This document shows positions 1-14,300 of a stretch of 26,899 nucleotides of DNA, piece by piece. This DNA is from a virus. The position numbers were made by a program, and so were the translations under genes. The stretch covers positions 1 to 26,899 of IMG/VR virus record IMGVR_UViG_3300027788_000064. The stretch is one strand, 5' to 3'. The notes beneath the pieces were generated by a model. That model saw nothing but the letters and a program-made list of their open reading frames with translations, ran no database searches and was not told where the DNA came from. The first letter of the stretch is position 1, and the number at the start of each line of letters is the position of its first letter.

Positions 1-230
1 GGTTATCGGATGGTGAATTTGTTTTCACCAAGAAGGCTACCGATCAAATGGGCGCTGATCAGCTACAAACTATGATGGACGAAGCTGAGAAAGCCTATGA
101 CGGTGGTTTAATGAAGAAAGCATTTGGCGGTATGGTAGATGACATCCCTATGGATGAGCGTCAAGAAGACGAAGAAATTGACAATATGATGATTACTTCT
201 AACCAGATGCCAAGTGTTAAGCAACGATAA
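1..230 (+). CDS. C-terminal part of an upstream phage protein (5' end outside window)
   Basis: The frame is open from base 3 to the TAA at 228-230, so the window enters this gene in its middle; an ATG at 48 is internal. The visible part begins LSDGEFVFTKKATDQMG and then becomes acidic (Asp/Glu-rich), ending SNQMPSVKQR. I recognise the DGEFVFT-type segment from unnamed marine phage proteins encoded just before the scaffold gene, but I know no function for it. A short KAFGGMVDD segment resembles double-glycine segments in other virion proteins of this window. Its place ahead of scaffold and capsid suggests a portal-proximal or capsid-assembly protein; this is inference from position only. The reading frame is secure, the identity is not. 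Confidence 0.7.
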   Translation, partial: LSDGEFVFTKKATDQMGADQLQTMMDEAEKAYDGGLMKKAFGGMVDDIPMDERQEDEEIDNMMITSNQMPSVKQR

Positions 231-266
231 GGCCACTCTTTAACTAGACCCCTTATTATTTTTTTT
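227..266 (+). terminator. possible weak intrinsic terminator
   Basis: ATAAGG at 227-232 can pair with CCTTAT at 251-256 around an 18-nt loop, and a T-rich run (257-266) follows at once. The six-pair stem is A/T-rich and overlaps the stop codon of the upstream gene, so it may stop only part of the transcription. All genes on both sides face the same way, so read-through would be expected. Confidence 0.3.
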
Positions 267-348
267 ACCTAGAGGCCACCTTGAAGTATCAAGACCCTGT
301 ACTGAAAACGCGAACAGTATAGCCACCTTGAAAGACTAGCAAGCCCCA
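231..348 (+). repeat. three imperfect copies of a GCCAC...ACCC/GCCCC element in the gap before the scaffold gene
   Basis: The gap between the two genes carries three related stretches starting near 231, 274 and 321. Each opens with (G/A)GCCAC and ends about 20-25 bases later in a run of C. Copies 2 and 3 share GCCACCTTGAA exactly (275-285 and 322-332). In both, CTTG can pair with a nearby CAAG: copy 2 gives CTTGA/TCAAG around AGTA (280-293), and copy 3 gives CTTG/CAAG (327-343). Copy 1 is more diverged. The last copy ends just before the scaffold ribosome binding site, so an RNA element controlling the head genes is possible. I see no convincing promoter boxes here. Confidence 0.45.
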
Positions 349-365
349 ACAGGAGTGTGATGTAT

Positions 366-1214
366 ATGTCAACTGTAAACGAACAAATTGAAGAACCAAC
401 TGCAAATCCGTATAACTCTAAGAAGGACTGGCACACACCAGATGCCCCAAGTAGAGGTAAAGCAGATGCGCTTTTCTTTGAAGAACCCTCACAGGCTACC
501 CGCAAAGCGGCCCCTGAACAAGAAGAGGAAGCACCCAAAGGAAGAACTAATTATAAAAAACGATACGACGATCTAAAGAAACACTACGATCAGAAGATAG
601 CATCTTTTAAGCAAAAGGAATTAGAGCTTACCGCGATGGCACAAGAGACGCAACATGCGTATGCCCCGCCTAAGTCAACTGAAGAACTTGAAAACTTTAG
701 AGAGCAGTATCCTGATCTATATGAAACTGTAGAAACTGTTGCACACTTACAAAGCGAACAACAGCTACAAGCTTTAAAAACTAAGATGACTGTTCTTGAA
801 GAACGAGAACTAAACATCCAACGTAAAGAAGCTGAGTCTACGCTACGTTCTCGTCATCCTGATTTTGAGGATATACGCGGAGATGATAAGTTTCACGAAT
901 GGGCTAAGGAACAACCTGAAGCAATTCAAGGTTGGATTTACGAAAACCCAAACAATGTTTCATTAGCTATTAAAGCTATTGATCTTTATAAGATGGAAAA
1001 TGGTATTCAAATTGGAAGTAAGCAGAAGGCAAAGAAATCACAAGCCCCCAAATCTTCAGCGGCAGATATGGTGTCCACACGGACAACACAAATAAATGCT
1101 AAAGAACCAAAGATTTGGTCACAACGGGAAATCGCTAAACTGTCTATAACTCAATTTGATAAATACGAAAGTGATATTGATGCGGCTATAATGGAAGGCA
1201 GGATAGTAGATTAA
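366..1214 (+). CDS. probable capsid scaffolding protein
   Basis: This is a protein of about 282 aa directly upstream of the major capsid gene, the usual place of a phage scaffold. It is highly charged and Gln/Glu/Lys-rich. Its first 60 residues look disordered (Pro, Glu, Gln), a helical coiled-coil-prone middle runs from about residue 55 to 165, and a short helical end finishes FDKYESDIDAAIMEGRIVD. Such a charged C-terminal helical end is typical of scaffold proteins that bind coat protein, and marine phage scaffolds I know end in a similar way. Starts are possible at 357 (GTG), 360 and 366 (ATG). AGGAG at 351-355 is 10 nt from 366 but only 4 nt from 360, so I prefer 366. No enzyme motif is seen. 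The scaffold role rests on position and composition. Confidence 0.72.
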   Translation: MSTVNEQIEEPTANPYNSKKDWHTPDAPSRGKADALFFEEPSQATRKAAPEQEEEAPKGRTNYKKRYDDLKKHYDQKIASFKQKELELTAMAQETQHAYAPPKSTEELENFREQYPDLYETVETVAHLQSEQQLQALKTKMTVLEERELNIQRKEAESTLRSRHPDFEDIRGDDKFHEWAKEQPEAIQGWIYENPNNVSLAIKAIDLYKMENGIQIGSKQKAKKSQAPKSSAADMVSTRTTQINAKEPKIWSQREIAKLSITQFDKYESDIDAAIMEGRIVD

Positions 1215-1246
1215 ATATTATTGTCTTTTTTTAGGAGTAACACACA

Positions 1247-2236
1247 ATGGCTTATAATGCCTCAGACGCTCTATTTGAGCAAAGTACAGACACTAACGGT
1301 AACTTTGGTAACTCAGTTTCCGGTCAAACTAACAGCTTCTTCATGCCCTCAATCTTTTCTAAGAAGGTTCTTAACTTCTTTCGGAAAGCATCGGTAGCAG
1401 AAGCAATTACCAACACTGACTATGCAGGTGAAATCTCAGGTTTCGGTGACTCTGTAAAGATCATCAAAGAGCCAGAAATCACTGTATATTCATATGAGCG
1501 TGGTGCTGACGTAACTCAGACTAAGCTAACTGACGTTGAAACTACTTTGATTGTAGATGTGGCTAACGCATTTAAATTCAAAGTTGATGATATTGAAACT
1601 GCTATGTCTCACGTAAACTTCAAAGAAGTTGCATCTTCATCTGCCGCTTACGCATTGCGTGACGCATTTGACGAAGGCGTAATTGCTAAGATTATTGCGG
1701 GCGTTTCAGCTTCAGCCCCTAACCACATCCTTGGTAGCGATAGTGCTACTGACCTAGCCGCAGGAACTTTTGACGGCACTGGTAACTTGGACATTGGTTC
1801 TGGCTCTACCGAACATGATCCTTTAGATGTGATGGCTCACATGGCGCGTCTACTTGACGAGCAAAGCATCCCAGAAGAAGGTCGTTGGTTCTTAGCTCCA
1901 CCTAGTTTTTACGAGCAACTATCTCAGTCTAGCTCTAAGTTGATGTCTGTTGATTTCAACGCCGGACAAGGTTCTATCCGCAACGGATTGGTATCTTCTG
2001 GCAAGCTACGTGGATTTGACATGTACAAGTCTAACAACATTGCCGCTACAACTAACGCGGCAGGTCAGATAGTATGTGGACACATTAGCTCTACTGCAAC
2101 TGCACAGACCATCACAAGCACTGAAGTCCTACGCGACCCAGACAGCTTTGGTGACATCTGTCGTGGACTGCACGTATATGGTGCTAAGGTTCTACGCCCA
2201 GACGCATTAGTATCTGCGTTCTACGGTATTGACTAA
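1247..2236 (+). CDS. major capsid protein
   Basis: This 329-aa protein has the size and neighbourhood of a tailed-phage coat protein of the HK97-fold type and would form the icosahedral shell. The N-terminal part (about 30-60) contains FMPSIFSKKVLNFFRKAS, as in podovirus coat proteins whose early segment reads 'Ser-x-x-Phe-Ser-x-x-Val'. The middle holds an E-loop-like and spine-helix-like stretch (about 105-150), and the end is LRPDALVSAFYGID. There is no long propeptide, consistent with a separate scaffold gene just upstream. AGGAG at 1233-1237 lies 9 nt before the ATG, a strong site for a highly expressed protein. A hairpin follows the gene. I judge the assignment from sequence character and context; I cannot choose between P22-like and T7-like subfamilies by eye. 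Confidence 0.85.
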   Translation: MAYNASDALFEQSTDTNGNFGNSVSGQTNSFFMPSIFSKKVLNFFRKASVAEAITNTDYAGEISGFGDSVKIIKEPEITVYSYERGADVTQTKLTDVETTLIVDVANAFKFKVDDIETAMSHVNFKEVASSSAAYALRDAFDEGVIAKIIAGVSASAPNHILGSDSATDLAAGTFDGTGNLDIGSGSTEHDPLDVMAHMARLLDEQSIPEEGRWFLAPPSFYEQLSQSSSKLMSVDFNAGQGSIRNGLVSSGKLRGFDMYKSNNIAATTNAAGQIVCGHISSTATAQTITSTEVLRDPDSFGDICRGLHVYGAKVLRPDALVSAFYGID

Positions 2237-2251
2237 GTAAGCAATTAGAGA

Positions 2252-2278
2252 AGGGGGTGTAAAAGCCCCCTGATCTTT
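2252..2278 (+). terminator. G/C hairpin after the capsid gene
   Basis: AGGGGG (2252-2257) pairs perfectly with CCCCCT (2266-2271) around an 8-nt loop, followed by GATCTTT. The stem is strong but the T-run is short, so this is either a leaky terminator or a 3' structure that protects the capsid mRNA. It sits 16 bases after the capsid stop codon and just before the ribosome binding site of the next small gene, a typical spot for a step-down in expression after the coat gene. Confidence 0.55.
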
Positions 2279-2289
2279 GAGAGGACAAT

Positions 2290-2457
2290 ATGGCAATTAT
2301 TGGAAGTAATGAAAAGCCTATAATGATGAGAGGCAAAAAGAGAGGAAAGATATTAGGCGATACAGGAAGTTGGTATAAGCCTGAGAACAAAAAGAAGTAT
2401 GAAGATAACTGGGATGCTATATTCGGCAAGCCTACTAAAACTACAAAGGCGAAATAA
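2290..2457 (+). CDS. small basic protein (55 aa) between capsid and adaptor genes
   Basis: An ATG at 2290 preceded by GAGAGG (2279-2284) opens a 55-codon frame ending at TAA 2455-2457, three bases before the next gene. It begins MAIIGSNEKPIMMRGKKR and is strongly basic (many Lys and Arg), with aromatic residues in the middle (GSWYKPENKKKYEDNWDAIF). Spacing, ribosome binding site and tight packing make it a convincing gene. I do not recognise a named family. A small basic protein next to the coat gene could decorate or stabilise the capsid or bind DNA, but this is a guess from position and charge. Confidence 0.7.
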   Translation: MAIIGSNEKPIMMRGKKRGKILGDTGSWYKPENKKKYEDNWDAIFGKPTKTTKAK

Positions 2458-2460
2458 CTC

Positions 2461-3231
2461 ATGGCAACAACCTTTTTAACTTTAGCGAATGAAATCTTAC
2501 GCGAAATAAACGAAGTAGAACTTACATCTAGTTCTTTTTCTTCTTCCGTAGGAATACAGACGCATGTAAAAGACGTTATTAATAGAGCTTATTTTGATAT
2601 TGTTAACGAGGAACCTCAATGGCCTTTTCTGTCTTTAGAAGAAAGCGGCGAAACTGATCCTATGTACGGCAATACATTTGTTGAAACAGTCGCAGGTACT
2701 CGTTGGTATGAGCTAAAACCTGCAAGCTCATCACTCACTACAGATTATAATTATATAGATTGGGACAATTTCTATTTAACTACAGTCGGTGTTTCCGGAG
2801 AAACTGCTCCGTATGAAAGCCGCAATTTAAAATTTACAACAATTGAAGAATGGAAAGATTTTTTTAGAGTTAGTGAAAACTTAGACGATGCTGACACACA
2901 ACAGTACGGTACGCCTAGCCGTGTAATTAAAAGCCCTGACAATAGAAAGTTTGGGCTTAGTGCTATTCCTGATAAAGTATATAGAATTTGGTTCTTTGCT
3001 TATGTTCAGCCTACAGCCCTTTCAGCATACTCTGATTTATTAGTGTTCCCTGATTCGTTTTCTGCTGTACTATTAAATAGAGCGCGATATTACGTACATC
3101 AATTTAAAGACAACGCTCAAGCGGCGGCATTTTCAAACGAAGATTATAAAAAAGGTTTAAAGAATATGAAACTTATTCTTATGGGGCCAACGCCTATTTA
3201 TATGAAAGATGACCGAATGAGATTCGTATAG
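2461..3231 (+). CDS. probable head-to-tail adaptor (tail tubular protein A-like)
   Basis: This 256-aa protein follows the capsid gene. Its N-terminus (about 1-60) is helical and contains LANEILREINEVEL and VKDVINRAYFDIVNEEPQWP, the pattern 'helix, then a second helix ending in Trp-Pro' found in small podovirus adaptors (T7 gp11, P22 gp4) and their marine relatives. The rest is rich in aromatic and beta-prone residues and ends in a basic stretch with MGPTPIYMKDDRMRFV. Such proteins form a ring under the portal that receives the nozzle. The stop lies two bases before the next start, so both are probably translated together. The adaptor role is inferred from gene order and N-terminal pattern; sequence identity to T7 gp11 cannot be claimed. 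Confidence 0.65.
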   Translation: MATTFLTLANEILREINEVELTSSSFSSSVGIQTHVKDVINRAYFDIVNEEPQWPFLSLEESGETDPMYGNTFVETVAGTRWYELKPASSSLTTDYNYIDWDNFYLTTVGVSGETAPYESRNLKFTTIEEWKDFFRVSENLDDADTQQYGTPSRVIKSPDNRKFGLSAIPDKVYRIWFFAYVQPTALSAYSDLLVFPDSFSAVLLNRARYYVHQFKDNAQAAAFSNEDYKKGLKNMKLILMGPTPIYMKDDRMRFV

Positions 3232-3232
3232 T

Positions 3233-4840
3233 ATGGCCGGTTCACAACCTTTTGGTTTATCGTGCAAAGGTGGTTTAAATACTAACCTGAACCAATTTGA
3301 AATGTTAGCACAGCCGGGGCTTGCAACAGACCTTGAAAACTTTGAAGTCGATACAGACGGCGGTTATCGTAGAGTTAATGGCTTTCAAAGATTTGGAAAC
3401 AGCAACCCGAATAGCGACAACCCGATTTTAGGATTGTTTGTTTATGCTGATGGCTTGATAGCTTGTTCAGGAACAAACATTTTTTTCACGCTAGATGGTT
3501 CTACATGGCTACAGATTAACAGGGCAAGCGTTGCCGGTAGCGGCGATAACTATACAGCCTTTACAGGCCGCTCAACGCTAACTAGAACCAATCAAGCGCA
3601 GTGTAGTTTTGCAGTATACGAAGGCGACACAACTTACGGCGAGCTTGTTATAGTTGACGAGTCTTCAGCTACAAAGCCTTTCTATTTTAAAATGACAGGC
3701 ACTGGAGCATTAAGTAATAGAACATATTTTGCCGCAGAAATAACAGTATCAGGTTCTGTGTTTCCTACAACCTGCACAGTACACGACAGACACTTAATAG
3801 TTGCAGGAGATATTAATAATCCTAACACAATTTATTATAGTGCTACTGACGACATTATTAGCTTTTCAGGAACAGGTGCAGGAAGCATTAAGCTAGACGA
3901 CAAAGTAATAGGGGTTCGTGGCTTCCGTTCTGACCTTGTAATATTTTGTAAAAACAGTATTTATAAACTTATAAATATTAATAATTCTGCGTCTATTGCA
4001 GTCCAACCAGTAACTAAAAACGTAGGTTGTTTAGACAAACACACAATTCAAGAAGTTGCAGGTGACTTAGTATTTTTAAGTCCTGATGGTGTAAGAACAA
4101 TTGCAGGTACAGCACGTATTGGTGACGTTGAGTTAGGCTCAGTAAGCAGACAGATACAAAGTGTTGTTGAAACAGTAGCAAAGAGTATTGCAACTTTAAT
4201 TGTAGATAGTGTTGTGTTGCGTCAAAAATCACAATACAGAATTTTTTACACAACATCAACTCAAGCCGCTGAGCAATCTAAAGGTATTATAGGTTCCTTA
4301 ACTTCTAATGGCTTTGCATGGTCAGAAACATTGGGCATCCAAGCAAGAGCAATTACTTCTGGCTTTAGCTCAGACGGCACTGAAAAAACATTCCACGGAG
4401 ATAGCGAAGGATATGTTTATACTCACGATGTTGGAAACTCTTTTGTACATTTAGGCGTTGAATCTAATATACGTGCAACTTATAAAACACCTAACTATGA
4501 CTTTGGAGACTTTGGAACACTAAAAAACATGCGTTATGTTAAGCTTTCGTTTAGTCCCGAAGGTATTGCAGAGCCTGTACTAAGAGTACGATATAATTAT
4601 GAGGACGACGATGTTCCTCAACCACTAGACTATAGACTGACAGCAGTGCCTACCCCCGCTATTTTTGGCACTTCACTGTTTAACACCACTATTTTTGGGG
4701 CATCTAATGATCCTTTAGTTCGCCAAGCAGTGCAGGGTGGTGGATACTCAGTAAGCTTTAGAATAAGAACAGATGATAAGAACCCACCTTTTTCAGTAAA
4801 CGGTATGTATATAGATTATATGCCATCAACACGGAGATAA
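3233..4840 (+). CDS. probable tail nozzle/hub protein (beta-rich, stabilisation-protein-like)
   Basis: This 535-aa protein begins MAGSQPFGLSCKGGLNTNLN and soon contains AQPGLATDLENFEVDTDGGYRRVNGF. That 'Gly-x-Ala-x-x-Leu-x-Asn-Phe-Glu ... Gly-Gly-Tyr-Arg-Arg' pattern is familiar from podovirus tail hub or DNA-stabilisation proteins (P22 gp10-like) and nozzle proteins. The body is almost all beta-prone with many Gly/Ser/Thr turns, compatible with a beta-propeller, and has repeated LVIFCKNSIYKL / LVFLSPDGVRTI-like blades near 230-290. It lies between the adaptor and fibre genes, where T7 encodes nozzle gp12, although it is shorter than gp12 (about 790 aa). It would close the tail and hold packaged DNA. 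Exact family not determined. Confidence 0.6.
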   Translation: MAGSQPFGLSCKGGLNTNLNQFEMLAQPGLATDLENFEVDTDGGYRRVNGFQRFGNSNPNSDNPILGLFVYADGLIACSGTNIFFTLDGSTWLQINRASVAGSGDNYTAFTGRSTLTRTNQAQCSFAVYEGDTTYGELVIVDESSATKPFYFKMTGTGALSNRTYFAAEITVSGSVFPTTCTVHDRHLIVAGDINNPNTIYYSATDDIISFSGTGAGSIKLDDKVIGVRGFRSDLVIFCKNSIYKLININNSASIAVQPVTKNVGCLDKHTIQEVAGDLVFLSPDGVRTIAGTARIGDVELGSVSRQIQSVVETVAKSIATLIVDSVVLRQKSQYRIFYTTSTQAAEQSKGIIGSLTSNGFAWSETLGIQARAITSGFSSDGTEKTFHGDSEGYVYTHDVGNSFVHLGVESNIRATYKTPNYDFGDFGTLKNMRYVKLSFSPEGIAEPVLRVRYNYEDDDVPQPLDYRLTAVPTPAIFGTSLFNTTIFGASNDPLVRQAVQGGGYSVSFRIRTDDKNPPFSVNGMYIDYMPSTRR

Positions 4841-4843
4841 CTA

Positions 4844-7800
4844 ATGTCAGGCACTAGCTATACAAGACAAAGCACTTTTGCTGATGGCGATACAATCACA
4901 GCCTCACTTTTTAATACCGAATATAATCAACTAGTCGCGTCTTTTGCGTATGCTAGTAGCGGTACAACAGGACACCAACACGATGGAGGCGCAGGAGAAG
5001 GCGGTAATATTCATACAATTGGCGATCAAGACTTCTTAAACAAGATAGTTGTTGACAGCACTAACAACCGTTGGAGCGTCTTTGTAGAAGTAGGCGGTAG
5101 TGCCGTTGAGCAAGTACGCATTGAAGACGGTGTAGTATATCCGGTTACTGATAGCGACGTAGACCTTGGTACAAATGCTTTGCGTTTCAAGAACGCTTAC
5201 ATTGATAGCCTTACAGCTACTGGCAACCTTACAGTCGGTGGAAACATAACTGTAACAGGCAACGTAGACGTTGATGGCATTGTAGAGTTTGATGGTTTAT
5301 CCGGTACAGGATCAGTTACAGTCACAGACATTTTAGATCAAGATGATATGTCAGGCGACAGTGCTACAGCCCTTGCAACTCAACAGAGCATTAAAGCCTA
5401 CGTAGATGCACAGCAAGACACTGTAGACACATTCGGCGAAGTCTTAGCACTCAGCAACACTACTGCGGGTACAGACATTTCTGTATCGACTGACGATAAG
5501 GTGCAGTTCCGTGATTCAGCTATTTATATTAACTCTAGTGCTGACGGACAACTAGACATTGTTGCAGACACTGAGATTCAAATAGCCGCAACTACTATAG
5601 ACATTAATGGTGCTGTAGCACTTAATGGTGCAGTTACTGGAGCTACCAACATTACATTGAGCGGTGAGCTTGATGCGGCTACAGGTGACTTCTCAGGCGC
5701 AGTAGATATTGATGGCGCTTTAGATGTAGCAGGAACAACTAACTTAGATGTTGTGGACATTGATGGCGCTGTGGACATGGCTACAACGCTTGCAGTAGCA
5801 GGTAATGTAGACTTTAACGGCGACCTAGATGTAGATGGTGTAACAAACTTAGACGTAGTAGACATTGATGGTGCAGTAAACATGGCGACTACCTTGCTTG
5901 TTACAGGCAACGTAGACTTTAACGGCGACCTAGATGTAGATGGTACTACAAACCTAGATGTTGTAGACATTGACGGCGCAGTAAACATGGCGACTACTTT
6001 GCTTGTTACAGGCAATGTAGACTTCAATGGCGACCTAGATGTAGATGGAACAACCAACCTTGACGTTGTTGACATTGATGGTGCTGTGGATATGGCAAGC
6101 ACACTAGCCGTTGCAGGTGTTTTGACTGCCGCTTCTTTAGACATCTCAGGCGATGTAGATGTTGACGGAACCTTAGAAACTGACGCGCTTACTATTGCAG
6201 GTGTTACTTTAGCAGAAACCATATCAGATACTGTTGGAGCTATGGTAGCTTCTAATACTGAAACAGGTATTGCAGTTACATACGATGATGCAGATAACAC
6301 TTTAGACTTTGTAATCGGTGATAACGCTATTGTACAATCTATGATAGCTGATAATGCTATTGATTCTCAAATGTATGTAGATGGAAGTATTGACTTAATA
6401 CACATGTCTGCAAACTCTGTAGACTCTGACCAATATGTTGATGGCTCTATTGACACAGCACACATTGCAGACAGTCAGATTACAAGTGCAAAGATAGTAG
6501 ACGGAACAATTGCTACAGGTGATATTGCTGATGATGCAGTCACAGGTGCTAAACTTGCAAACAATATAGACATAGCAGGAACACTAGATGTTACTGGCGT
6601 ATTGACAGCAGATTCTAATGTTGTAATCGCAGGAAATCTTACAGTTCAAGGAGATACAACAACTCTAAATACTGCAACGCTTGATGTCGAAGATAAAAAC
6701 ATAACACTTAACAAAGGTGCAGGAGATACTTCAGGCTCTGCTAACGGTGCAGGTCTTACTATTCAAGATGCTGTAGATGCGTCTAACGATGCTACAATCC
6801 TTTGGGATACTACTAACGATGAGTTTGATTTCTCACATCCTATTAATGTAGCAGGTAAAGTTACAAGTACAGGTACTTCAGTATTTGCAAGTCTTGATAT
6901 TTCAGGCGATATAGATGTTGATGGAACAACTAATTTAGATGTTGTCGATATTGATGGTGCTGTGGATATGGCGAGTACTTTGCAAGTAGATGGTGCGGCT
7001 ACCTTCACTACTGAAATCACAGCCAACGGCGGCATAGCATTGGGCGACAATGACAAGGCTACGTTTGGTGCAGGTGATGATCTACAGATTTATCATGATG
7101 CTACAAGTTCTCACAGTATTATTGCCGAAAGTGGTGGTGGAAGTCTGCTTATCCGTGGGCAAGGCGTTACATTGCAAAATGCAGACGGCTCTAAAGCATA
7201 CTTTGGTGGTAGTGGAGATGTTGCTACTGCTTACTACGGGACTTCAGCTAAACTAGCCACCACCTCCACAGGCATAGACGTTACTGGCACAGTCACAGCC
7301 ACAGGCACTTCAGTATTCGCATCCCTAGACATCTCTGGAGACATAGACGTAGACGGCACGACTAACCTTGATGTCGTGGACATTGATGGTGCTGTGGATA
7401 TGGCAAGTACGTTGCAAGTCGATGGGAGTATTACATCCTCTGACGAAATGACAATTACCAAGGCAGTTGATGACCAATTAACTCTTGCTTACAACGCCTC
7501 AAACAGCACTAGTTATGGTTATTTTAGTATAGTCAATAATAATGTAGGTAATGAATTTTCCATACACACTGGTGGTGGCAAAACATTAAAGCTAGACGCC
7601 AACGGAGACATCACCTTCTACGCCGCAAACGGCACCACACCGTCCTTTGTGTATGACGAAAGCCTCGGCCTAACGATCAACGAATCTGGTGCCGATAGGG
7701 ACTTCCGCGTTGAGTCTGACGGCAACGCTAATATGCTGTTTGTTGATGGTGGTAATAATCGGGTTGGGGTTGGCACTGGGTCTCCTGACGATGACTTACA

Positions 7801-10741
7801 CATAGCTAACACTACACAAGCAGGAGCTACTTTCCGATTAGAAAACACAAACACATCCACAGACACTAACACTACTTTCGGCACTATAAACTTTGAAGGT
7901 AACGACAACAGTGCAGGTGCTAACGGTATTAGAGGGTCTATTGTTGGTAAGTCTTTAAGCACTAATGGCGCTATGGGCTTGTTGTTTTCTACAGCTTCAG
8001 CAGGAGGCTCTAACACAGAACGCTTCCGCATAGCCGCTGACGGCTCTCTATCCACCCCAACGCTAGGAACCTCTAACGTCCGATTCGGTGTCAACGCAGG
8101 TAACAGCATTGCAAGCGGTGGTGATTATAATGTTGTCGTAGGCGATGAAGCAGGTACTGCGATTACTACGGGTGATGCTAATACGTTCCACGGTTATCAA
8201 GCAGGAGCCGCAACTACAACTTCTTCGGACAATACTGCTATTGGCGGTGCGGCGTTAGCAACAAACATTCTTGCGTCTAGTAATACTGCCATAGGTAAAA
8301 ATGCTTTATACAGCCACAACGTAGGCAGTGCGGCATCTACCTACAATACGGCGGTTGGGCATCATGCAGGTCTATTAGTAACCACAGGCATCCAAAACAC
8401 CCTCATCGGTGGTCTTGCGGGTGATGCTCTCACAGATGCTGATTATAATGTTGCACTAGGATACCTAGCTCTTTCGGCAGACACTCTTGGTAGTCGTTCA
8501 GTAGCTATAGGTTATAACACTTTAGGAGTACAAAACTTTACAAGTGCTACTAATACTTACAACATAGCCATCGGACACGGTGCAGGAGCCTCAGTCACCA
8601 CAGGCACAACCAACACCATCATAGGTGGGCTTGCGGGTGATGCAATTACTACAGCGTCTAACAACACAGCAGTGGGTTATTCCGCTTTAACTACCAACAC
8701 TACTGGCGATGGTCAGGCGTTTGGTGCTTATGCTTTATTTAGCAACACTACTGGCTCAAATAATACTGCGTTAGGGGCAACAGCTTTATACGCCAACACC
8801 ACGGGGGTAAACAACTTAGCCGCAGGTCTTGCTTCTTTACGTTATAACACTACTGGTGGCTCCAACGTTGCGCTAGGCGTTAATGCTCTTAATGCAAACA
8901 CAACCGCCTCTAACAACACAGCAGTTGGTTATCAGTCTTTACTCGCAAACACCACAGGCTCTGAAAATGTAGCAGTTGGACAGGGTGCTTTAACAGCTAA
9001 TACTACAGCACCAAATAACACAGCGGTAGGTTCAAGTGCTTTATTATCAAACACTACAGGTACAAAAAACGCAGCTTTTGGAACGTATACTTTAGATGCT
9101 TCTACAACTGGAGACAATAACACAGCAGTGGGTTATGCTTCTTTAAGCGCAAACACCACCGCCGCTAACAACACAGCAGTTGGTAGTAGTGCTTTAACAG
9201 CAAACACCACAGGCGCAGAAAATACAGCAGTGGGTCACGTAGCTTTAGCGTCAAACACCACAGGCGCTAGTAATACTGCTTTTGGTAGAGCCTCTTTAAA
9301 TGCAAACACTACTGCAAGTTATAATACTGCGTATGGTACAGATACTTTACAAGTTAACACTACAGGCGCTAACAACACAGCTACTGGTTACCGCGCTTTA
9401 TTTGTAAACACCACAGCCGCTAACAACACCGCAGTCGGTCACTTTGCTTTAGGCGCAAACACCACAGGCTCTGAAAACACGGCTGTCGGCGCAGAAGCAC
9501 TAGATGCCAATACAACTGGTTCTAGTAATAATGCTTTTGGGTATCATTCTTTAAGTAATAATACAACTGGTGGTGCAAATGTTGGTATAGGTAGAGGAGC
9601 TTTATTTTCAAATACAACTGCATCTAATAACACAGCAGTGGGTTACTTTGCTTTATTAGTAAACACCACAGGCGACAGAAATGTAGCTTTGGGCGCATAT
9701 ACACTAGACGCAAACACAACTGCTTCTGGAGCCACAGCTTTAGGTTATAACGCATTATCAGCAAACACCACAGGCTCAACAAACACAGGAGTGGGTTTCC
9801 ATGCTTTAAATGTGAACACCACAGGCGGCAGTAATGTTGCTGTAGGTGCGAGTGCATTACAAGCTAACACTACTGCTTCGAACAACACAGCGGTTGGTAC
9901 AAGTGCTTTAGCCGATAACACTACAGGGGACGAAAATAACGCTATTGGTGGTGGAGCTTTAGGTAACAACACCACAGGTGTAGATAATGATGCTCAAGGC
10001 TTTCATGCACTATTTGATAATACTACAGGTTCTTCTAATGTGGCGATGGGTAATAGGGCTTTAGCAACTAACACCACAGGCGAACAAAATGTGGCTGTTG
10101 GTTCTTCAGCAGGTGATTCAATTACTACAGGAAATAGAAATACAATTCTGGGGTACAATTCTGCTAATTCTTTAGCCGATGGAAGTGACAATGTGGCTCT
10201 TGGTCACCAAGTTGATGTTGGCGCATCTGTTGCTAATACTATTACTTTAGGAAGCGGTATAAGTGCTACAGGTAGTAATGACTTTTCGTTTGGTAAAGCA
10301 TCTAATGTTGTTACAAATGATTTTGATGCAGACGCAAACTGGTCAAGAAGTTCAGATGAAAGATTAAAGAAAAACATTGTAAATCAATCATTGGGTTTAG
10401 ATTTTATTAATGATCTTAGGACTGTTAAATATAACTGGAAGCCAAGTAATGAACTTGATGCTTCTGATGCGCAGTTAGCTCACTTACGCAGACGAGATGC
10501 GGATGGTAATGTTATTAATGATATGAATACCACAGTAACAATGCACAACTTTATCGCACAAGAAGTTAAAACAGCATTAGATACAGCAGGTGTGTCTAGC
10601 TTTGGTGGGTGGAAAGAAGATGACTTTGGAGTGCAACAAGTATCTCGTGAAATGTTTGTTATACCATTAGTCAAGGCCGTACAAGAACTCTCAACACAAC
10701 TAGATGCCGCACTCGCTCGCATCACAACCCTAGAAGGATAA
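4844..10741 (+). CDS. giant repeat-containing tail fibre with C-terminal S74 intramolecular chaperone
   Basis: This 1965-aa protein is the probable host-binding fibre. Residues 1-50 form a virion-anchor-like start with a His-x-His-Asp-Gly motif at 44-48, as in marine phage fibres. A stalk of repeats rich in DVDG, LDVVDIDGAV and LxVxG follows, with three 35-aa tandem units at 322-426 and a 42-aa segment present twice (676-717 and 820-861). From about 1070 to 1790 it is a long run of short repeats of the NTAVGxxALxANTTG type (28 units of mostly 17 aa from 1273), resembling YadA-like or beta-roll shafts. The end (about 1830-1965) is a peptidase S74 domain: SDERLKKNI with Ser1837 and Lys1842 spaced as in endosialidase, expected to trimerise the fibre and then cut itself off before Ser1837. 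GGAG at 4833-4836 sets the start. Codon use changes in patches, suggesting recombination. Confidence 0.88.
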   Translation: MSGTSYTRQSTFADGDTITASLFNTEYNQLVASFAYASSGTTGHQHDGGAGEGGNIHTIGDQDFLNKIVVDSTNNRWSVFVEVGGSAVEQVRIEDGVVYPVTDSDVDLGTNALRFKNAYIDSLTATGNLTVGGNITVTGNVDVDGIVEFDGLSGTGSVTVTDILDQDDMSGDSATALATQQSIKAYVDAQQDTVDTFGEVLALSNTTAGTDISVSTDDKVQFRDSAIYINSSADGQLDIVADTEIQIAATTIDINGAVALNGAVTGATNITLSGELDAATGDFSGAVDIDGALDVAGTTNLDVVDIDGAVDMATTLAVAGNVDFNGDLDVDGVTNLDVVDIDGAVNMATTLLVTGNVDFNGDLDVDGTTNLDVVDIDGAVNMATTLLVTGNVDFNGDLDVDGTTNLDVVDIDGAVDMASTLAVAGVLTAASLDISGDVDVDGTLETDALTIAGVTLAETISDTVGAMVASNTETGIAVTYDDADNTLDFVIGDNAIVQSMIADNAIDSQMYVDGSIDLIHMSANSVDSDQYVDGSIDTAHIADSQITSAKIVDGTIATGDIADDAVTGAKLANNIDIAGTLDVTGVLTADSNVVIAGNLTVQGDTTTLNTATLDVEDKNITLNKGAGDTSGSANGAGLTIQDAVDASNDATILWDTTNDEFDFSHPINVAGKVTSTGTSVFASLDISGDIDVDGTTNLDVVDIDGAVDMASTLQVDGAATFTTEITANGGIALGDNDKATFGAGDDLQIYHDATSSHSIIAESGGGSLLIRGQGVTLQNADGSKAYFGGSGDVATAYYGTSAKLATTSTGIDVTGTVTATGTSVFASLDISGDIDVDGTTNLDVVDIDGAVDMASTLQVDGSITSSDEMTITKAVDDQLTLAYNASNSTSYGYFSIVNNNVGNEFSIHTGGGKTLKLDANGDITFYAANGTTPSFVYDESLGLTINESGADRDFRVESDGNANMLFVDGGNNRVGVGTGSPDDDLHIANTTQAGATFRLENTNTSTDTNTTFGTINFEGNDNSAGANGIRGSIVGKSLSTNGAMGLLFSTASAGGSNTERFRIAADGSLSTPTLGTSNVRFGVNAGNSIASGGDYNVVVGDEAGTAITTGDANTFHGYQAGAATTTSSDNTAIGGAALATNILASSNTAIGKNALYSHNVGSAASTYNTAVGHHAGLLVTTGIQNTLIGGLAGDALTDADYNVALGYLALSADTLGSRSVAIGYNTLGVQNFTSATNTYNIAIGHGAGASVTTGTTNTIIGGLAGDAITTASNNTAVGYSALTTNTTGDGQAFGAYALFSNTTGSNNTALGATALYANTTGVNNLAAGLASLRYNTTGGSNVALGVNALNANTTASNNTAVGYQSLLANTTGSENVAVGQGALTANTTAPNNTAVGSSALLSNTTGTKNAAFGTYTLDASTTGDNNTAVGYASLSANTTAANNTAVGSSALTANTTGAENTAVGHVALASNTTGASNTAFGRASLNANTTASYNTAYGTDTLQVNTTGANNTATGYRALFVNTTAANNTAVGHFALGANTTGSENTAVGAEALDANTTGSSNNAFGYHSLSNNTTGGANVGIGRGALFSNTTASNNTAVGYFALLVNTTGDRNVALGAYTLDANTTASGATALGYNALSANTTGSTNTGVGFHALNVNTTGGSNVAVGASALQANTTASNNTAVGTSALADNTTGDENNAIGGGALGNNTTGVDNDAQGFHALFDNTTGSSNVAMGNRALATNTTGEQNVAVGSSAGDSITTGNRNTILGYNSANSLADGSDNVALGHQVDVGASVANTITLGSGISATGSNDFSFGKASNVVTNDFDADANWSRSSDERLKKNIVNQSLGLDFINDLRTVKYNWKPSNELDASDAQLAHLRRRDADGNVINDMNTTVTMHNFIAQEVKTALDTAGVSSFGGWKEDDFGVQQVSREMFVIPLVKAVQELSTQLDAALARITTLEG
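5807..6121 (+). repeat. three tandem 105-bp (35-aa) units in the fibre stalk
   Basis: Units start at 5807, 5912 and 6017, exactly 105 bp apart, each beginning Val-Asp-Phe-Asn-Gly-Asp-Leu-Asp-Val-Asp-Gly. They code for 35 residues each, and a partial fourth unit lies upstream from about 5722. Differences between units are almost all synonymous. The alternating Asp/Val/Gly pattern suits a trimeric beta-structured shaft. Confidence 0.9.
6869..6994 (+). repeat. 42-codon segment, copy 1 of 2
   Basis: Codes for TGTSVFASLDISGDIDVDG followed by TTNLDVVDIDGAV and DMASTLQVDG. The same 42 residues are encoded again at 7301-7426 without any amino-acid change, but 23 of 42 codons differ. Confidence 0.92.
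7301..7426 (+). repeat. 42-codon segment, copy 2 of 2
   Basis: Same protein sequence as 6869-6994, offset by 432 bp (144 codons). This copy uses mostly C-ending codons (GAC, GGC, ATC, TTC), including one Ser changed from AGT to TCC, in contrast to the T-ending codons of copy 1. Confidence 0.92.
8660..10110 (+). repeat. 28 tandem ~51-bp (17-aa) ANTTG repeats in the fibre shaft
   Basis: From about residue 1273 to 1756 the fibre is a run of units of the form Asn-x-x-Ala-x-Gly-x-x-x-Leu-x-x-Asn-Thr-Thr-(Gly/Ala)-x. I count 28 Leu-x-x-(Asn/Ser)-Thr-Thr blocks; one unit is 16 aa and the usual length is 17. Looser versions of the same repeat extend upstream to about 8045. The pattern is YadA-head/beta-roll-like. 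Codons vary freely (AACACCACA, AACACTACT, AATACAACT) while the residues stay fixed. The DNA has no CRISPR character, because the repeat is in frame and coding. Confidence 0.92.
10340..10738 (+). other. peptidase S74 (intramolecular chaperone) domain of the fibre
   Basis: The last about 129 residues carry the S74 signature. Ser1837 (codon at 10352) starts SDERLKKNI, and Lys1842 lies five residues later, the same Ser/Lys spacing as the autocleavage pair of endosialidase F (Ser911/Lys916). The domain ends in a helical part (EMFVIPLVKAVQELSTQLDA), as expected for the trimeric chaperone coiled coil. The mature fibre should end just before Ser1837. Confidence 0.85.
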
Positions 10742-10746
10742 ATAAA

Positions 10747-10992
10747 ATGGAAGATCGTACAGCAGAACAACTAGCACAAGACTACTCAGCAATGGGTGAC
10801 AGCGTAGCAGTAATAACAGACGTAATCGCAGGAGACTCTATGGCAGATGATATAGCCGCAGATAGGCAGGATTGTGTAGATAGAAACGTACAGCACCTAG
10901 AGCTTATGGTTGCTAAAGACGATTGGGGCAGTGAAGACTTTACAGCCTGTAATGCCGCGATTGTTGCAGGTAACGGCTACACCGCATCATGA
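10747..10992 (+). CDS. small acidic hypothetical protein (81 aa)
   Basis: The start is 6 bp after the fibre stop, with AGAAGG at 10732-10737 as ribosome binding site. The product is acidic, begins MEDRTAEQLAQDYSAMGDSV and contains one stretch around residues 50-60 with His and Leu (RNVQHLELMVAKDDW). It has two Cys (about 42 and 68) and no membrane segment or signal peptide. I do not recognise a named family; small proteins like this follow fibre genes in many marine phages and may be fibre chaperones or attachment proteins, but nothing in the sequence proves that. Its TGA overlaps the ATG of the next gene (ATGA), indicating coupled translation. Confidence 0.72.
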   Translation: MEDRTAEQLAQDYSAMGDSVAVITDVIAGDSMADDIAADRQDCVDRNVQHLELMVAKDDWGSEDFTACNAAIVAGNGYTAS

Positions 10993-11150
10993 GCTATTTA
11001 TTAGATGCTTATGTACTTGCAACAAGCCTAGTCAGCGTGGCTAGTGTTGTTTGCAACTACACAGAAACCCCGAAGGATGACGCATGGGTTGCTAAAGCCT
11101 ACAAGGTTCTAGAGCAATTCGCTTTTCTCGGCAACAAAGCAAAGGACTAA
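10989..11150 (+). CDS. small membrane-associated protein (53 aa)
   Basis: Its ATG overlaps the preceding stop as ATGA at 10989-10992. The 53-aa product begins MSYLLDAYVLATSLVSVASV: a hydrophobic helix of about 18-20 residues, then a Cys-containing turn (VCNYTETPKDD) and an amphipathic end (WVAKAYKVLEQFAFLGNKAKD). This looks like a single-helix membrane protein. I recall similar 50-60-aa proteins in marine phages but no proven function. Since it is followed immediately by a holin-like gene, a lysis-accessory or membrane-remodelling role is possible. Translational coupling at both ends and a start with no gap make it a real gene despite its size. Confidence 0.68.
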   Translation: MSYLLDAYVLATSLVSVASVVCNYTETPKDDAWVAKAYKVLEQFAFLGNKAKD

Positions 11151-11155
11151 AACCC

Positions 11156-11332
11156 ATGGAAGAAACCAAAGAAGTAATAGACATAGCCGCCGCAAGCACA
11201 GGAGTACTGACTATGATTAGTTGGCTACCACCTACTGCTTCTTTGTTTACAATTGTATGGCTAGGCATTAGGATTTATGAATCAGAAACAATTCAAAAAC
11301 TTGTTAATAGAAAGGTAGATAACGATGAGTAA
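11156..11332 (+). CDS. holin-like small membrane protein (58 aa)
   Basis: AAAGGA at 11141-11146 precedes the ATG by 9 nt. The product has an acidic start (MEETKEVIDIAAAS), one or two hydrophobic helices (about 14-40, including SWLPPTASLFTIVWLGIRIY) and a short charged tail (KLVNRKVDNDE). This build resembles class II holins of T7 gp17.5 type, which form holes in the inner membrane at lysis. Such a gene lies next to the fibre gene in T7 too. The last 8 bases overlap the start of the 1646-aa protein gene (ATGAGTAA), a tight translational link. The holin call rests on size, topology and position, so it is tentative; a structural membrane protein is the alternative. Confidence 0.6.
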   Translation: MEETKEVIDIAAASTGVLTMISWLPPTASLFTIVWLGIRIYESETIQKLVNRKVDNDE

Positions 11333-14300
11333 AAAAGAAAACAAGAAAACCGCTAACAAGACTTTGAAGTCTCTGAAACGTAAGCGATATGCTAAAGGCG
11401 GTCGCCCTGCTCTTATACCTAAGCCTATGCCAAAGTCTCCTGCTCCTTATGATGACAGCGATATTAAGCCTAAAGGTGCGACGGGTAACAGTTCAAATGT
11501 AGTTAAGCCCGATGTTTCAGATGTTTTTGTAGCTCCTACAATAACACAACCAACCGCTTCATCTTCAGCGCAACAAAAGGCTATAAGCACTGGAAGTGTA
11601 ACTAGAACAGGCCCAACAACAACGACTAGCGAGGTTCAAGGAGAAGGCGATCCAGATAGTCCTTTATATGATACTCCGCGTCCTGTTCCTGCAAATTCAG
11701 ATTATCCAACAGACGCAGAAACAAGAGAGCTAGCTCGATGGAACATAGCTAATGGTTTTAGCCCAGATACGGGTGGCGGCAGTGCGTCTTTTTCTACTGT
11801 TCCTACAGATATAAAAATCACAGGCCCACAAGCTAACATTCGTCAAATGGAATCTATAAATATTGATTCACAAGAAGGCATTACTGACCGTTCTGCTGTT
11901 CAACAGCTTACCGACGCTACAGACGCTACATCAAGTACTGTGACTGCGGAAACTATGACAGCTGAACAAGGAGGTGTAAAAACAGCGGTTGAAGGCCCAA
12001 CAACTAAAGATGCTAAAAAATACACAGCTGAAAAAGCCGGAAGTGTAGGCACTACTGTAGCCGCTAAATTTGATGAAGATGTTACTAAAGCTACAGCAGG
12101 TGGAACCGATGGGCAAGCCGTAGCTTCTGAAGCACCAAAAACCACACGCGATGATGCTAAAGAAACAGAAGCAAGAGGAACTGCGGCACAGCGCGACCCC
12201 GATTTAATTGATAAAAAATATGCTACAGCCGCTACAGATGGCGTTGCTGAGGTTGCTTCTGGAGTTGAAGGCCCTGATGTAGACACACGTACAGGCGTAA
12301 CAATACCACAATCTAAAATTGATGAAATTAAATTAGATGCTGAAAAACGTGGCGTTGATCCTGATCAAGCTTTAATAGACTACAGAAACTCTAGAGAGTT
12401 TAGAGAAGCCCAAACAGGCACAGCCGCTAAAGGCGATGCCGCTTCTATGAGTTCTTCTAAAGGAACTACTGCCTCCGCAGATTTCTTAGAAGCCGCTAAT
12501 GTTGCCGCAGGAAAGAAAGAACAAATAGCTGACGTAGGCGAAGCAGGTTTTGCAGATCGTGAAGGCCGTCAAGCCGCTGATCAAGGCGACATGGATTCCG
12601 CAACTGTAGGTGACGCACAAGCACAAAAAGACCGTAGAGATGCAGTTATAGAAGATCAATCTGCTGAAGCTACGGCTGAACAAACAGGCGAGTTACAAGA
12701 TTTTACATTGGAACTATCGCGCGAAAATCAAACAGGCGTGGCCGTTGAACGACAATATGAGTCAATGATTATTCCTGAAGATAAAAAACCTGCACAAGCA
12801 GAATACTATGCCGCAGACTTTACACCCGAAGGCGGCAATACAGACATAGATGCCATACCCGCTTATGAAGTAGCCGCTACAAGAACCGCACAAGTAGGAG
12901 AAGCCGCACAGCGCATTGCTACTGAACTAGGCGATGCAGAATCTGTAGATTTAGTAGGCCGTGAAGCTATTACAGGTGACGCGCCTCAAGGAGATGCCGC
13001 ACAAATTGGTGGTGTTCCTACAATGGCCGCCGCAACTATGCAAGCAGTTAAAGGCGAAGATAGAACCGTAGCCGCCGCAGATATGAACGCGGTTGTTGCA
13101 AACGTACAGCCAGAAATAACAGCCGCTATTGCTGAAGACCCTGCAACAGTTCGTGTAAAAGAAGACGAAGGTGCAGACCCACAAACTATTGCGGCTATTG
13201 CGGCTTTGCCTGTTGAAGCACTTGTCTCCACACAGATGGAAGGTTTACTTGCAGGTATGGAAGACGGTAAAACTCCATTGTGGGCTAAGCCCGCTATAGA
13301 TGCAATGAACCAACAAATGGCCGCTAGAGGTTTAAGTGTTTCTACTGTAGGCCGTGATGCATTGTTTAATGCTATTATACAAAGTGCGTTACCGATGGCT
13401 CAGAGCAATGCTCAAGCTTTACAGCAACGCGCACAGCAAAACTTGTCTAATCAACAGCAAGCTAATCTTTCGACTGCTCAAGGTGTTATGCAGATACGGA
13501 TGCAGAATCTTGCTAACCGTCAAACTGCCGCGTCACAGACTGCTCAAATGGCTCAGCAGATTCAAGTACAACAAGGTACATTTAATCAACAAGCTGTTAT
13601 GACTTCAGCAGAGCAACGGCAACAAACTGAATTAGCTAATGCACAAATGGCTCAGCAACGAGCGCAACAAACATCCGCACAGACTCAACAAGCCGCTATA
13701 GCTGAGTTAAGTACAAATGCTCAAATGGACTTAGCAAACTTGCAAGCTTTAAATCAAGCAGAGTCTCAAAACATGACTGCTGATCAACAAGCAAGATTGC
13801 AAACGTATAATGCTCAAATAAATAAAACTATGCGTCAGGCAGAACTTAATCAAGACATGGAAAAAGCTAATATTTCACAGTCTTTACAGGTTGAAATGCA
13901 ACGTGTGTCTGAAATGAATGCGGCCTCTAAAGATACAATGACCGCAGAAAATCAAGAGCGTATGACAAACATACAAACTCTTATAGACTTCCGTAAAACT
14001 GACGCACAGTTTGCTCAGCAAATGGACTTGGCTAACATGTCCAATGAGCAACAAATGGAACTTGCTAACTTATCTGAAAGAGCCGCTACAGACACAGCAA
14101 ACTTTACAGCAGAGAATCAATTTGAGTTAACAAGACTTAATAATGTTGTTACGCGAGCTAGTCGTCAAGCAGAACTAGATCAGCAAATGGAAGTTGCTAA
14201 CTTAGATAGCAGTTTAAAAATAGAACTATCTGAACTGTCTGAAAAGAACAACACCTCTCGTGCAAACATGAGCGCAGATCAACAAATGCGTTTAAAAAAC

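Follow-up and report, generated by a model that had tools for sequence, protein, structure and literature searches.

The window analysed here is an entire viral record of 26,899 bases. End repeats are absent, and the record is probably a genome fragment. Its capsid protein is nearest to that of the Pelagibacter phage HTVC115P (59.7%). On the plus strand, an open reading frame of 1965 residues (4844-10741) matches PHROG virion structural and tail spike families and carries a C-terminal Peptidase_S74 intramolecular chaperone domain (Pfam PF13884, residues 1837-1916, 10352-10591, E 4e-9, above the cut-off). Judged by these matches, the gene is taken to encode an S74-chaperone tail fibre. A scan for terminators and promoters alongside it returned nothing useful. 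Within the fibre, 8640-10150 holds an extended repeat array; its units are 17 residues (51 nt) long and of NTAVGYxALxANTTG type, 24 copies of one unit are listed, and the codons vary strongly. Beyond the fibre gene, 11325-16265 encodes a 1646-residue protein with Gln/Ala-rich, AQQMELANLS-like repeats that have periods of 33 nt and 165 nt, for which a PHROG search gave no match.

Two segments of the fibre gene, copy 1 (6869-6994) and copy 2 (7301-7426), both on the plus strand, translate to the same 42 residues, TGTSVFASLDISGDIDVDGTTNLDVVDIDGAVDMASTLQVDG. Between them lies a domain (7013-7296, plus strand) that is itself common to other fibres. Upstream, four more modules stand in tandem (5699-6112, plus strand) with a period of 105 nt, so that the shorter core of the module, SLDISGDIDVDGTTNLDVVDIDGAVDMASTLQV, occurs six times in the gene, starting at 5699, 5804, 5909, 6014, 6890 and 7322. 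A sequence-only reading had described copies 1 and 2 as identical in all 42 residues with 23 of the 42 codons different, none of them a replacement, and with an AGT/TCC serine switch. This proved exact on recount. The copies differ at 26 nucleotides, and the serine switch, at codon 8, takes three base changes. Residue identity ends precisely at both borders, and the flanking residues differ.

The same reading had given C-ending codons to copy 2 and T-ending codons to copy 1. This holds for copy 1 (25 T and 2 C at third positions), whereas in copy 2 it is a tendency only (13 C and 12 T). The share of C-ending codons is 0.05 in copy 1 and 0.31 in copy 2; windows of the gene range from 0.07 to 0.38 (5-95%), silent-site composition being uneven along it. 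The differing codons are patchy, with 19 in codons 1-27, none in codons 28-34 and 4 in codons 35-42. Because codons 28-34 are identical, the copies share an exact DNA run of 23 nt, the longest between them (6950-6972 and 7382-7404, plus strand). The dN/dS comparison that had been proposed, done by the Nei-Gojobori method, yields a saturated pS of 0.75. It also counts 3 'nonsynonymous' steps, which come solely from the path through the serine switch because no residue differs. With each residue's codon drawn independently from the usage of the fibre gene, 25.3 +/- 3.0 codons per 42 are expected to differ, and the observed 23 lies well inside this range (P(<=23) = 0.28). In other words, the peptide identity is beyond chance, and the codon difference is as expected for unrelated spellings.

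The module belongs to a large family. Allowing up to 12 substitutions, the core was found 251 times in 89 of 159 sequences, namely the window and 158 viral loci (numbered with L below), of which 80 were picked by patterns that include the module peptide and 78 by patterns outside it. Three contigs that carry it (L183, L184 and L185) are binned as Maricaulis and Sphingobacteriales MAGs and are perhaps phage or prophage sequence. Across 162 DNA-distinct modules (more than 5 of 99 bases different), residues such as N15, L16, D17, D20, D22, G23 and A24 are invariant, and at conserved residues codon identity is 0.8-1.75 times the expectation from pooled usage. Strong constraint on the protein, proposed earlier from the pair alone, is thus borne out by a near-invariant peptide spelled with codons close to pooled usage. 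Among pairs with at least 31 of 33 residues the same, the mean codon mismatch is 0.483 for the 23 pairs that lie in one gene and 0.537 for the 1412 that span two genes; for copies 1 and 2 it is 0.625 on the comparable codons of the 33-residue core. The exact 42-mer is also present in three other phages (L033, L046 and L048). The ten pairs among these five copies differ at 16-27 codons and the window's own pair at 23; copies 1 and 2 therefore resemble any two unrelated copies. In contrast, the tandem modules at 5804 and 5909 differ at 10 of 99 nt only and are a recent duplication.

Are copies 1 and 2 close kin? Saturation, together with a codon difference of the size seen between unrelated spellings, means that they are not recent duplicates. 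The sequence-only reading would have given way if the two had clustered together with only recent differences, and this is not what the family looks like, as copy 2 is surpassed in closeness to copy 1 by 29 of 250 modules, and copy 1 in closeness to copy 2 by 65 of 250. A recent duplication whose copies then drifted silently where they stand was accordingly rejected, on the pS value, on these closer relatives elsewhere and on the shared DNA tracts described below. The phylogeny that had been suggested as a check says less. In a tree of 69 modules (126 columns), copies 1 and 2 are joined with weak support (61/54) over a path of 0.52 changes per column, and 34 of 66 inner branches are unsettled. 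Because the support is weak and the branches are long, the tree neither shows nor excludes kinship of the copies.

One clue to their origin is the distribution of the DNA itself. A 40-mer from copy 2 (7344-7383, plus strand) is found exactly in 25 stretches of other viral contigs, and the homologous 40-mer of copy 1 (6912-6951) in 0 other IMG/VR contigs; the window's own record was perhaps omitted from both searches. Around the copy 2 probe the exact match reaches 41-86 nt. The flanks compared, one on each side at a distance of 30 nt, were 84 nt long and were called unrelated below 55% identity. Of the 23 usable contigs, 20 have two flanks unrelated to the window's by this measure, 3 have one, and 0 are collinear. 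For control 40-mers from the same gene (near 5543 and 6818), 0 of 9 and 0 of 1 are unrelated on both flanks. The 24 rows with the copy 2 probe, the window included, combine 13 left with 17 right neighbours in 20 ways. Two loci (L181 and L173) have copy 2's left neighbour at 83-89% and a different sequence after the module, and L177 has 57% likeness to copy 2's right neighbour. Exact DNA of this length in so many contexts rules out convergence on a low-complexity peptide, which was also considered. Judged by these contexts, copy 2's core DNA appears to have spread by recombination among fibre genes, which upholds the earlier suggestion that one copy had arrived by recombination from relatives.

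Is this peculiar to copy 2? A family-wide test took 160 modules with both flanks present and the 10044 pairs of them whose flanks are less than 50% identical over 84 nt on both sides. As a null, codons were shuffled 100 times among modules, per position and within each residue. An exact run of 40 nt or more is shared by 24 of the 10044 pairs, where shuffling gives 1.57 (maximum 8); for 50 nt or more the figures are 7 and 0.1 (maximum 1). A separate test with 40 shuffles agrees. Leaving out the window gives 21 and 4 of 9566 pairs against 1.11 and 0.05. With only the window and the loci not chosen by the module, 3 of 1727 pairs reach at least 40 nt and 3 at least 50 nt, against 0.24 (maximum 2) and 0.01. 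Identical tracts between unlike flanks thus exceed what a shared peptide and codon preference yield, and the excess over shuffles means that module DNA is shared by descent between fibres that are unlike immediately beside it.

The neighbours of the module are correspondingly varied. With flanks of 32 residues, the left neighbours of 154 distinct modules fall into 51 kinds and the right ones into 50, and these form 120 combinations with 34 complete 2x2 sets. As a sliding control, a 33-residue frame was moved along the whole fibre against the 78 loci chosen outside the module, L002, L042 and the window. In its top registers (56-63 matches) the module has 16-26 left and 18-24 right kinds, 40-44 combinations and 3-5 complete 2x2 sets. 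Of the other segments, three come nearest to this: residues 1081-1113 have 18 left and 8 right kinds in 23 combinations with 0 complete sets, residues 1171-1203 (101 matches) have 11 and 10 in 20 combinations with 0 sets, and residues 151-183 have 7 and 5 in 12 combinations with 6 sets. From these counts the module is the strongest two-sided joint of the fibre gene, and not the sole one. Several other segments are one-sided, for example that before the S74 domain, with 20 left kinds and 1 right. Two such one-sided joints, at 8039-8137 and 10244-10387 (residues 1066-1098 and 1801-1848), have up to 20 different left neighbours and a single right one; the first immediately precedes the NTAVG repeats and the second the S74 domain. 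The fibre as a whole shares fragments with otherwise unrelated proteins, as a mosaic receptor-binding protein does.

Breakpoint positions give a less even picture. Modules hold no significant excess of the sharp breakpoints found on comparing fibre genes (13 of 52, null 10.3, P 0.25), nor of those that pass from at least 95% to below 60% identity (10 of 43, null 9.1); all alignment ends taken together fall in modules in 66 of 341 cases against 40.7 +/- 6.9. The 78 loci chosen outside the module contain 18 exact islands at or above 40 nt, of which 4 touch a module (null 1.8 +/- 1.3), too weak an excess to count. Since the other 14 lie off the module, other short blocks are shuffled too.

The site of copy 1 in relatives tells a similar story. 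Six loci share copy 1's left neighbour at 84.8-91.4% over 210 nt and at 92.9-100% in the last 42. At the module itself the same loci drop to 66.7-90.5% identity to copy 1 per third. The module is nearer to copy 2 than to copy 1 in 5 of the 6 loci examined and, counted by rows with this left neighbour, in 6 of 7. In four loci (L099, L100, L103 and L002) its middle third is 97.6-100% identical to copy 2. The exception is L125, which is nearer to copy 1 (27 against 32 differences). The five copy-2-like loci are not independent cases because L099, L100 and L103 are close kin, as is L101 among the seven rows. None of these seven rows shows the deletion form, in which copy 1's left neighbour would be linked to the right neighbour of copy 2.

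Larger exchanges can also be seen. A sister phage, L087, is 95.7% identical to the window over 226-6053, 91.0% over 10995-11971 and 96.6% over 12027-16156. Near-identity ends at 6053, inside the fourth tandem module, and beyond this point the fibre is a different one. On this comparison, 6053-10995 is a natural replacement of most of the distal fibre gene. The segment from module 4 to copy 1 (6137-6890, plus strand) is 96% identical to L108, whose other listed matches to the window are only 76-83% identical; the right end of the segment adjoins the end of the L108 contig. The sister (record G001), though not the window, gave a weak match to a Gp2.5-like single-stranded DNA annealing protein (phrog_112, E 2.7e-6). 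It also encodes a Cas4-type exonuclease (phrog_1990, E 2.3e-51) and an endonuclease. An integrase or invertase, or a reverse transcriptase, is absent from the matches for 15 of the 16 open reading frames of at least 110 residues in the first 20 kb of G001, and the subset of window frames scanned likewise has no such match.

Structure and homology searches add little about the module's fold. An AlphaFold model of the tandem modules (5684-6199) has a pLDDT of 73 and a pTM of 0.65 with beta strands recurring about 17-18 residues apart, a confidence that holds for the best of five models only (next pLDDT 65, lowest 41). For 6761-7453 the values are 70 and 0.44, and the modules are weak. Foldseek found no convincing match in the PDB (best probability 0.11 among the matches listed) or in a viral library (best E 7.1e-4, at an unconvincing rmsd of 21.6), and phmmer against PDB sequences found nothing below E 0.025. 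A tblastn search of phage records with the 42-mer had no match, the low-complexity filter having probably masked the query. DNA from 6620-7500 matched 6 phage records, by the listed ranges at neighbouring domains and not at the modules. The strings VDIDGAV, LDVVDIDG and NLDVVDID are absent from the open-licence papers searched.

How might these observations fit together? It is quite probable that the module is a stalk repeat, constrained at the protein level and saturated at silent sites, that doubles as a joint for shuffling fibre segments. It would be a repeat of the tail-fibre stalk, presumably built of beta strands, reused across uncultured, mostly marine phages. Such a role would constrain the peptide, and purifying selection is probably what keeps it almost unchanged. 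Given saturation across the family, roughly every second codon differs between copies of independent descent, in the same gene or in different phages. Copies 1 and 2 most likely came by separate routes, and the core of copy 2 probably belongs to a lineage recently spread among many fibre genes by recombination. The fibre segments upstream and downstream would be swapped at the module. As the module is alike everywhere, two fibre genes in one cell could pair there and exchange one side in frame. The most likely mechanism of the swap would be that homologous phage DNA anneals along a few tens of bases of identity. By passages of PMC3945230, RecA needs a pairing segment of at least 31-34 bp and Red-beta one of at least 23-27 bp. 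Set against these lengths, the 23-nt run makes the earlier idea that divergence guards the copies from recombining not compelling; the run persists, and the module is the very place where unlike parts join. Perhaps the peptide is near-invariant also since carriers can trade left and right parts in frame, making it a shared connector through which many phages would reach one pool of host-recognition segments, a suggestion we hold only tentatively.

Could the pair instead be an old duplication, in which an ancestral module was copied within the fibre lineage and drifted at silent sites with no later transfer? A saturated pS with no replacement would fit, the copies agree over all of the 42-mer, beyond the limits of the family core, and the tree does join them, if weakly. 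However, copy 2's core stands exact among other flanks in other contigs, many modules elsewhere are nearer to each copy, relatives with copy 1's left neighbour have copy-2-like DNA at that site, and the full 42-mer is found in three other phages. Such a duplication is unlikely for the pair, and for copy 2's core it is largely refuted.

The mosaics, perhaps even the window, could also be chimaeras, a short shared module having made assemblers fuse unrelated fibres. Nearly all loci are metagenome contigs, and some, such as L108, terminate in or near modules. Nevertheless, contig pairs with unrelated flanks share module DNA however they were joined, the same left and right pair recurs under different metagenome numbers (L165/L166, L167/L172 and L171/L180), and the window, unlike a simple chimaera, regains 91-97% identity with the sister past the exchanged part. 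An artefact of this kind is very improbable. The chance is equally slim that a dedicated recombinase or a diversity-generating element recognises the module core. One DNA haplotype is indeed very widely shared, with long shared runs centred on the middle of the module, but the runs are variable in length, unlike a fixed crossover site, and the frames scanned in the sister and the window gave no match to the enzymes expected.

If the module is a constrained stalk repeat serving as a joint, several consequences follow. It would be a concrete, searchable place where uncultured phages seem to rebuild their tail fibres. Counting identical tracts between unlike flanks across viromes could give a rate of fibre-part exchange, and saturated silent sites would tell long-standing constraint apart from recent transfer. 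Within such genes, 'duplicates' that have diverged heavily at silent sites may then be separate arrivals of one module.

Parts of this picture have precedents. For HMO-2011-type and HTVC103P-type marine podophages, recombination between phage groups is described in passages of PMC8528129; their likeness to the window is one of capsid kinship, through HTVC115P. The module was not found within the 29 kb of that phage examined. Its record (L191, 25861-26310) has a gene annotated as a toxin-activating lysine-acyltransferase, which is odd for a podophage. Collagen-like and other low-complexity linkers are exchange points in prophage fibres. Like the module, they are repetitive, structurally tolerant stretches that let unlike fibre parts recombine, but the module is not Gly-X-Y and, unlike them, is nearly invariant. 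Passages of PMC3945230 describe how phage recombinases generate mosaics over short, diverged homology, and the 23-nt run of the window's copies is comparable with the lengths given there for relaxed-homology recombination. That work concerns lambdoid phages and Rad52-like enzymes that were assayed, whereas here the candidate is a weak Gp2.5-like match in a sister. A further likeness is to the domain mosaicism of receptor-binding proteins. According to passages of PMC10684548, tail fibres and tail spikes stand out for recent shuffling, and unrelated fibre proteins share fragments, so fragment shuffling in phage fibres is already known. Those passages speak of folded domains, whereas the fragment in the window is a repeat of 33-42 residues that acts like a hub on either side; its exact DNA tracts measure 41-86 nt, their flanks are mostly unrelated, and its haplotypes are saturated at silent sites relative to one another. 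What appears to be new, as far as these sequences tell, is a short, two-sided and hyperconserved joint with DNA-level evidence of recent spread.
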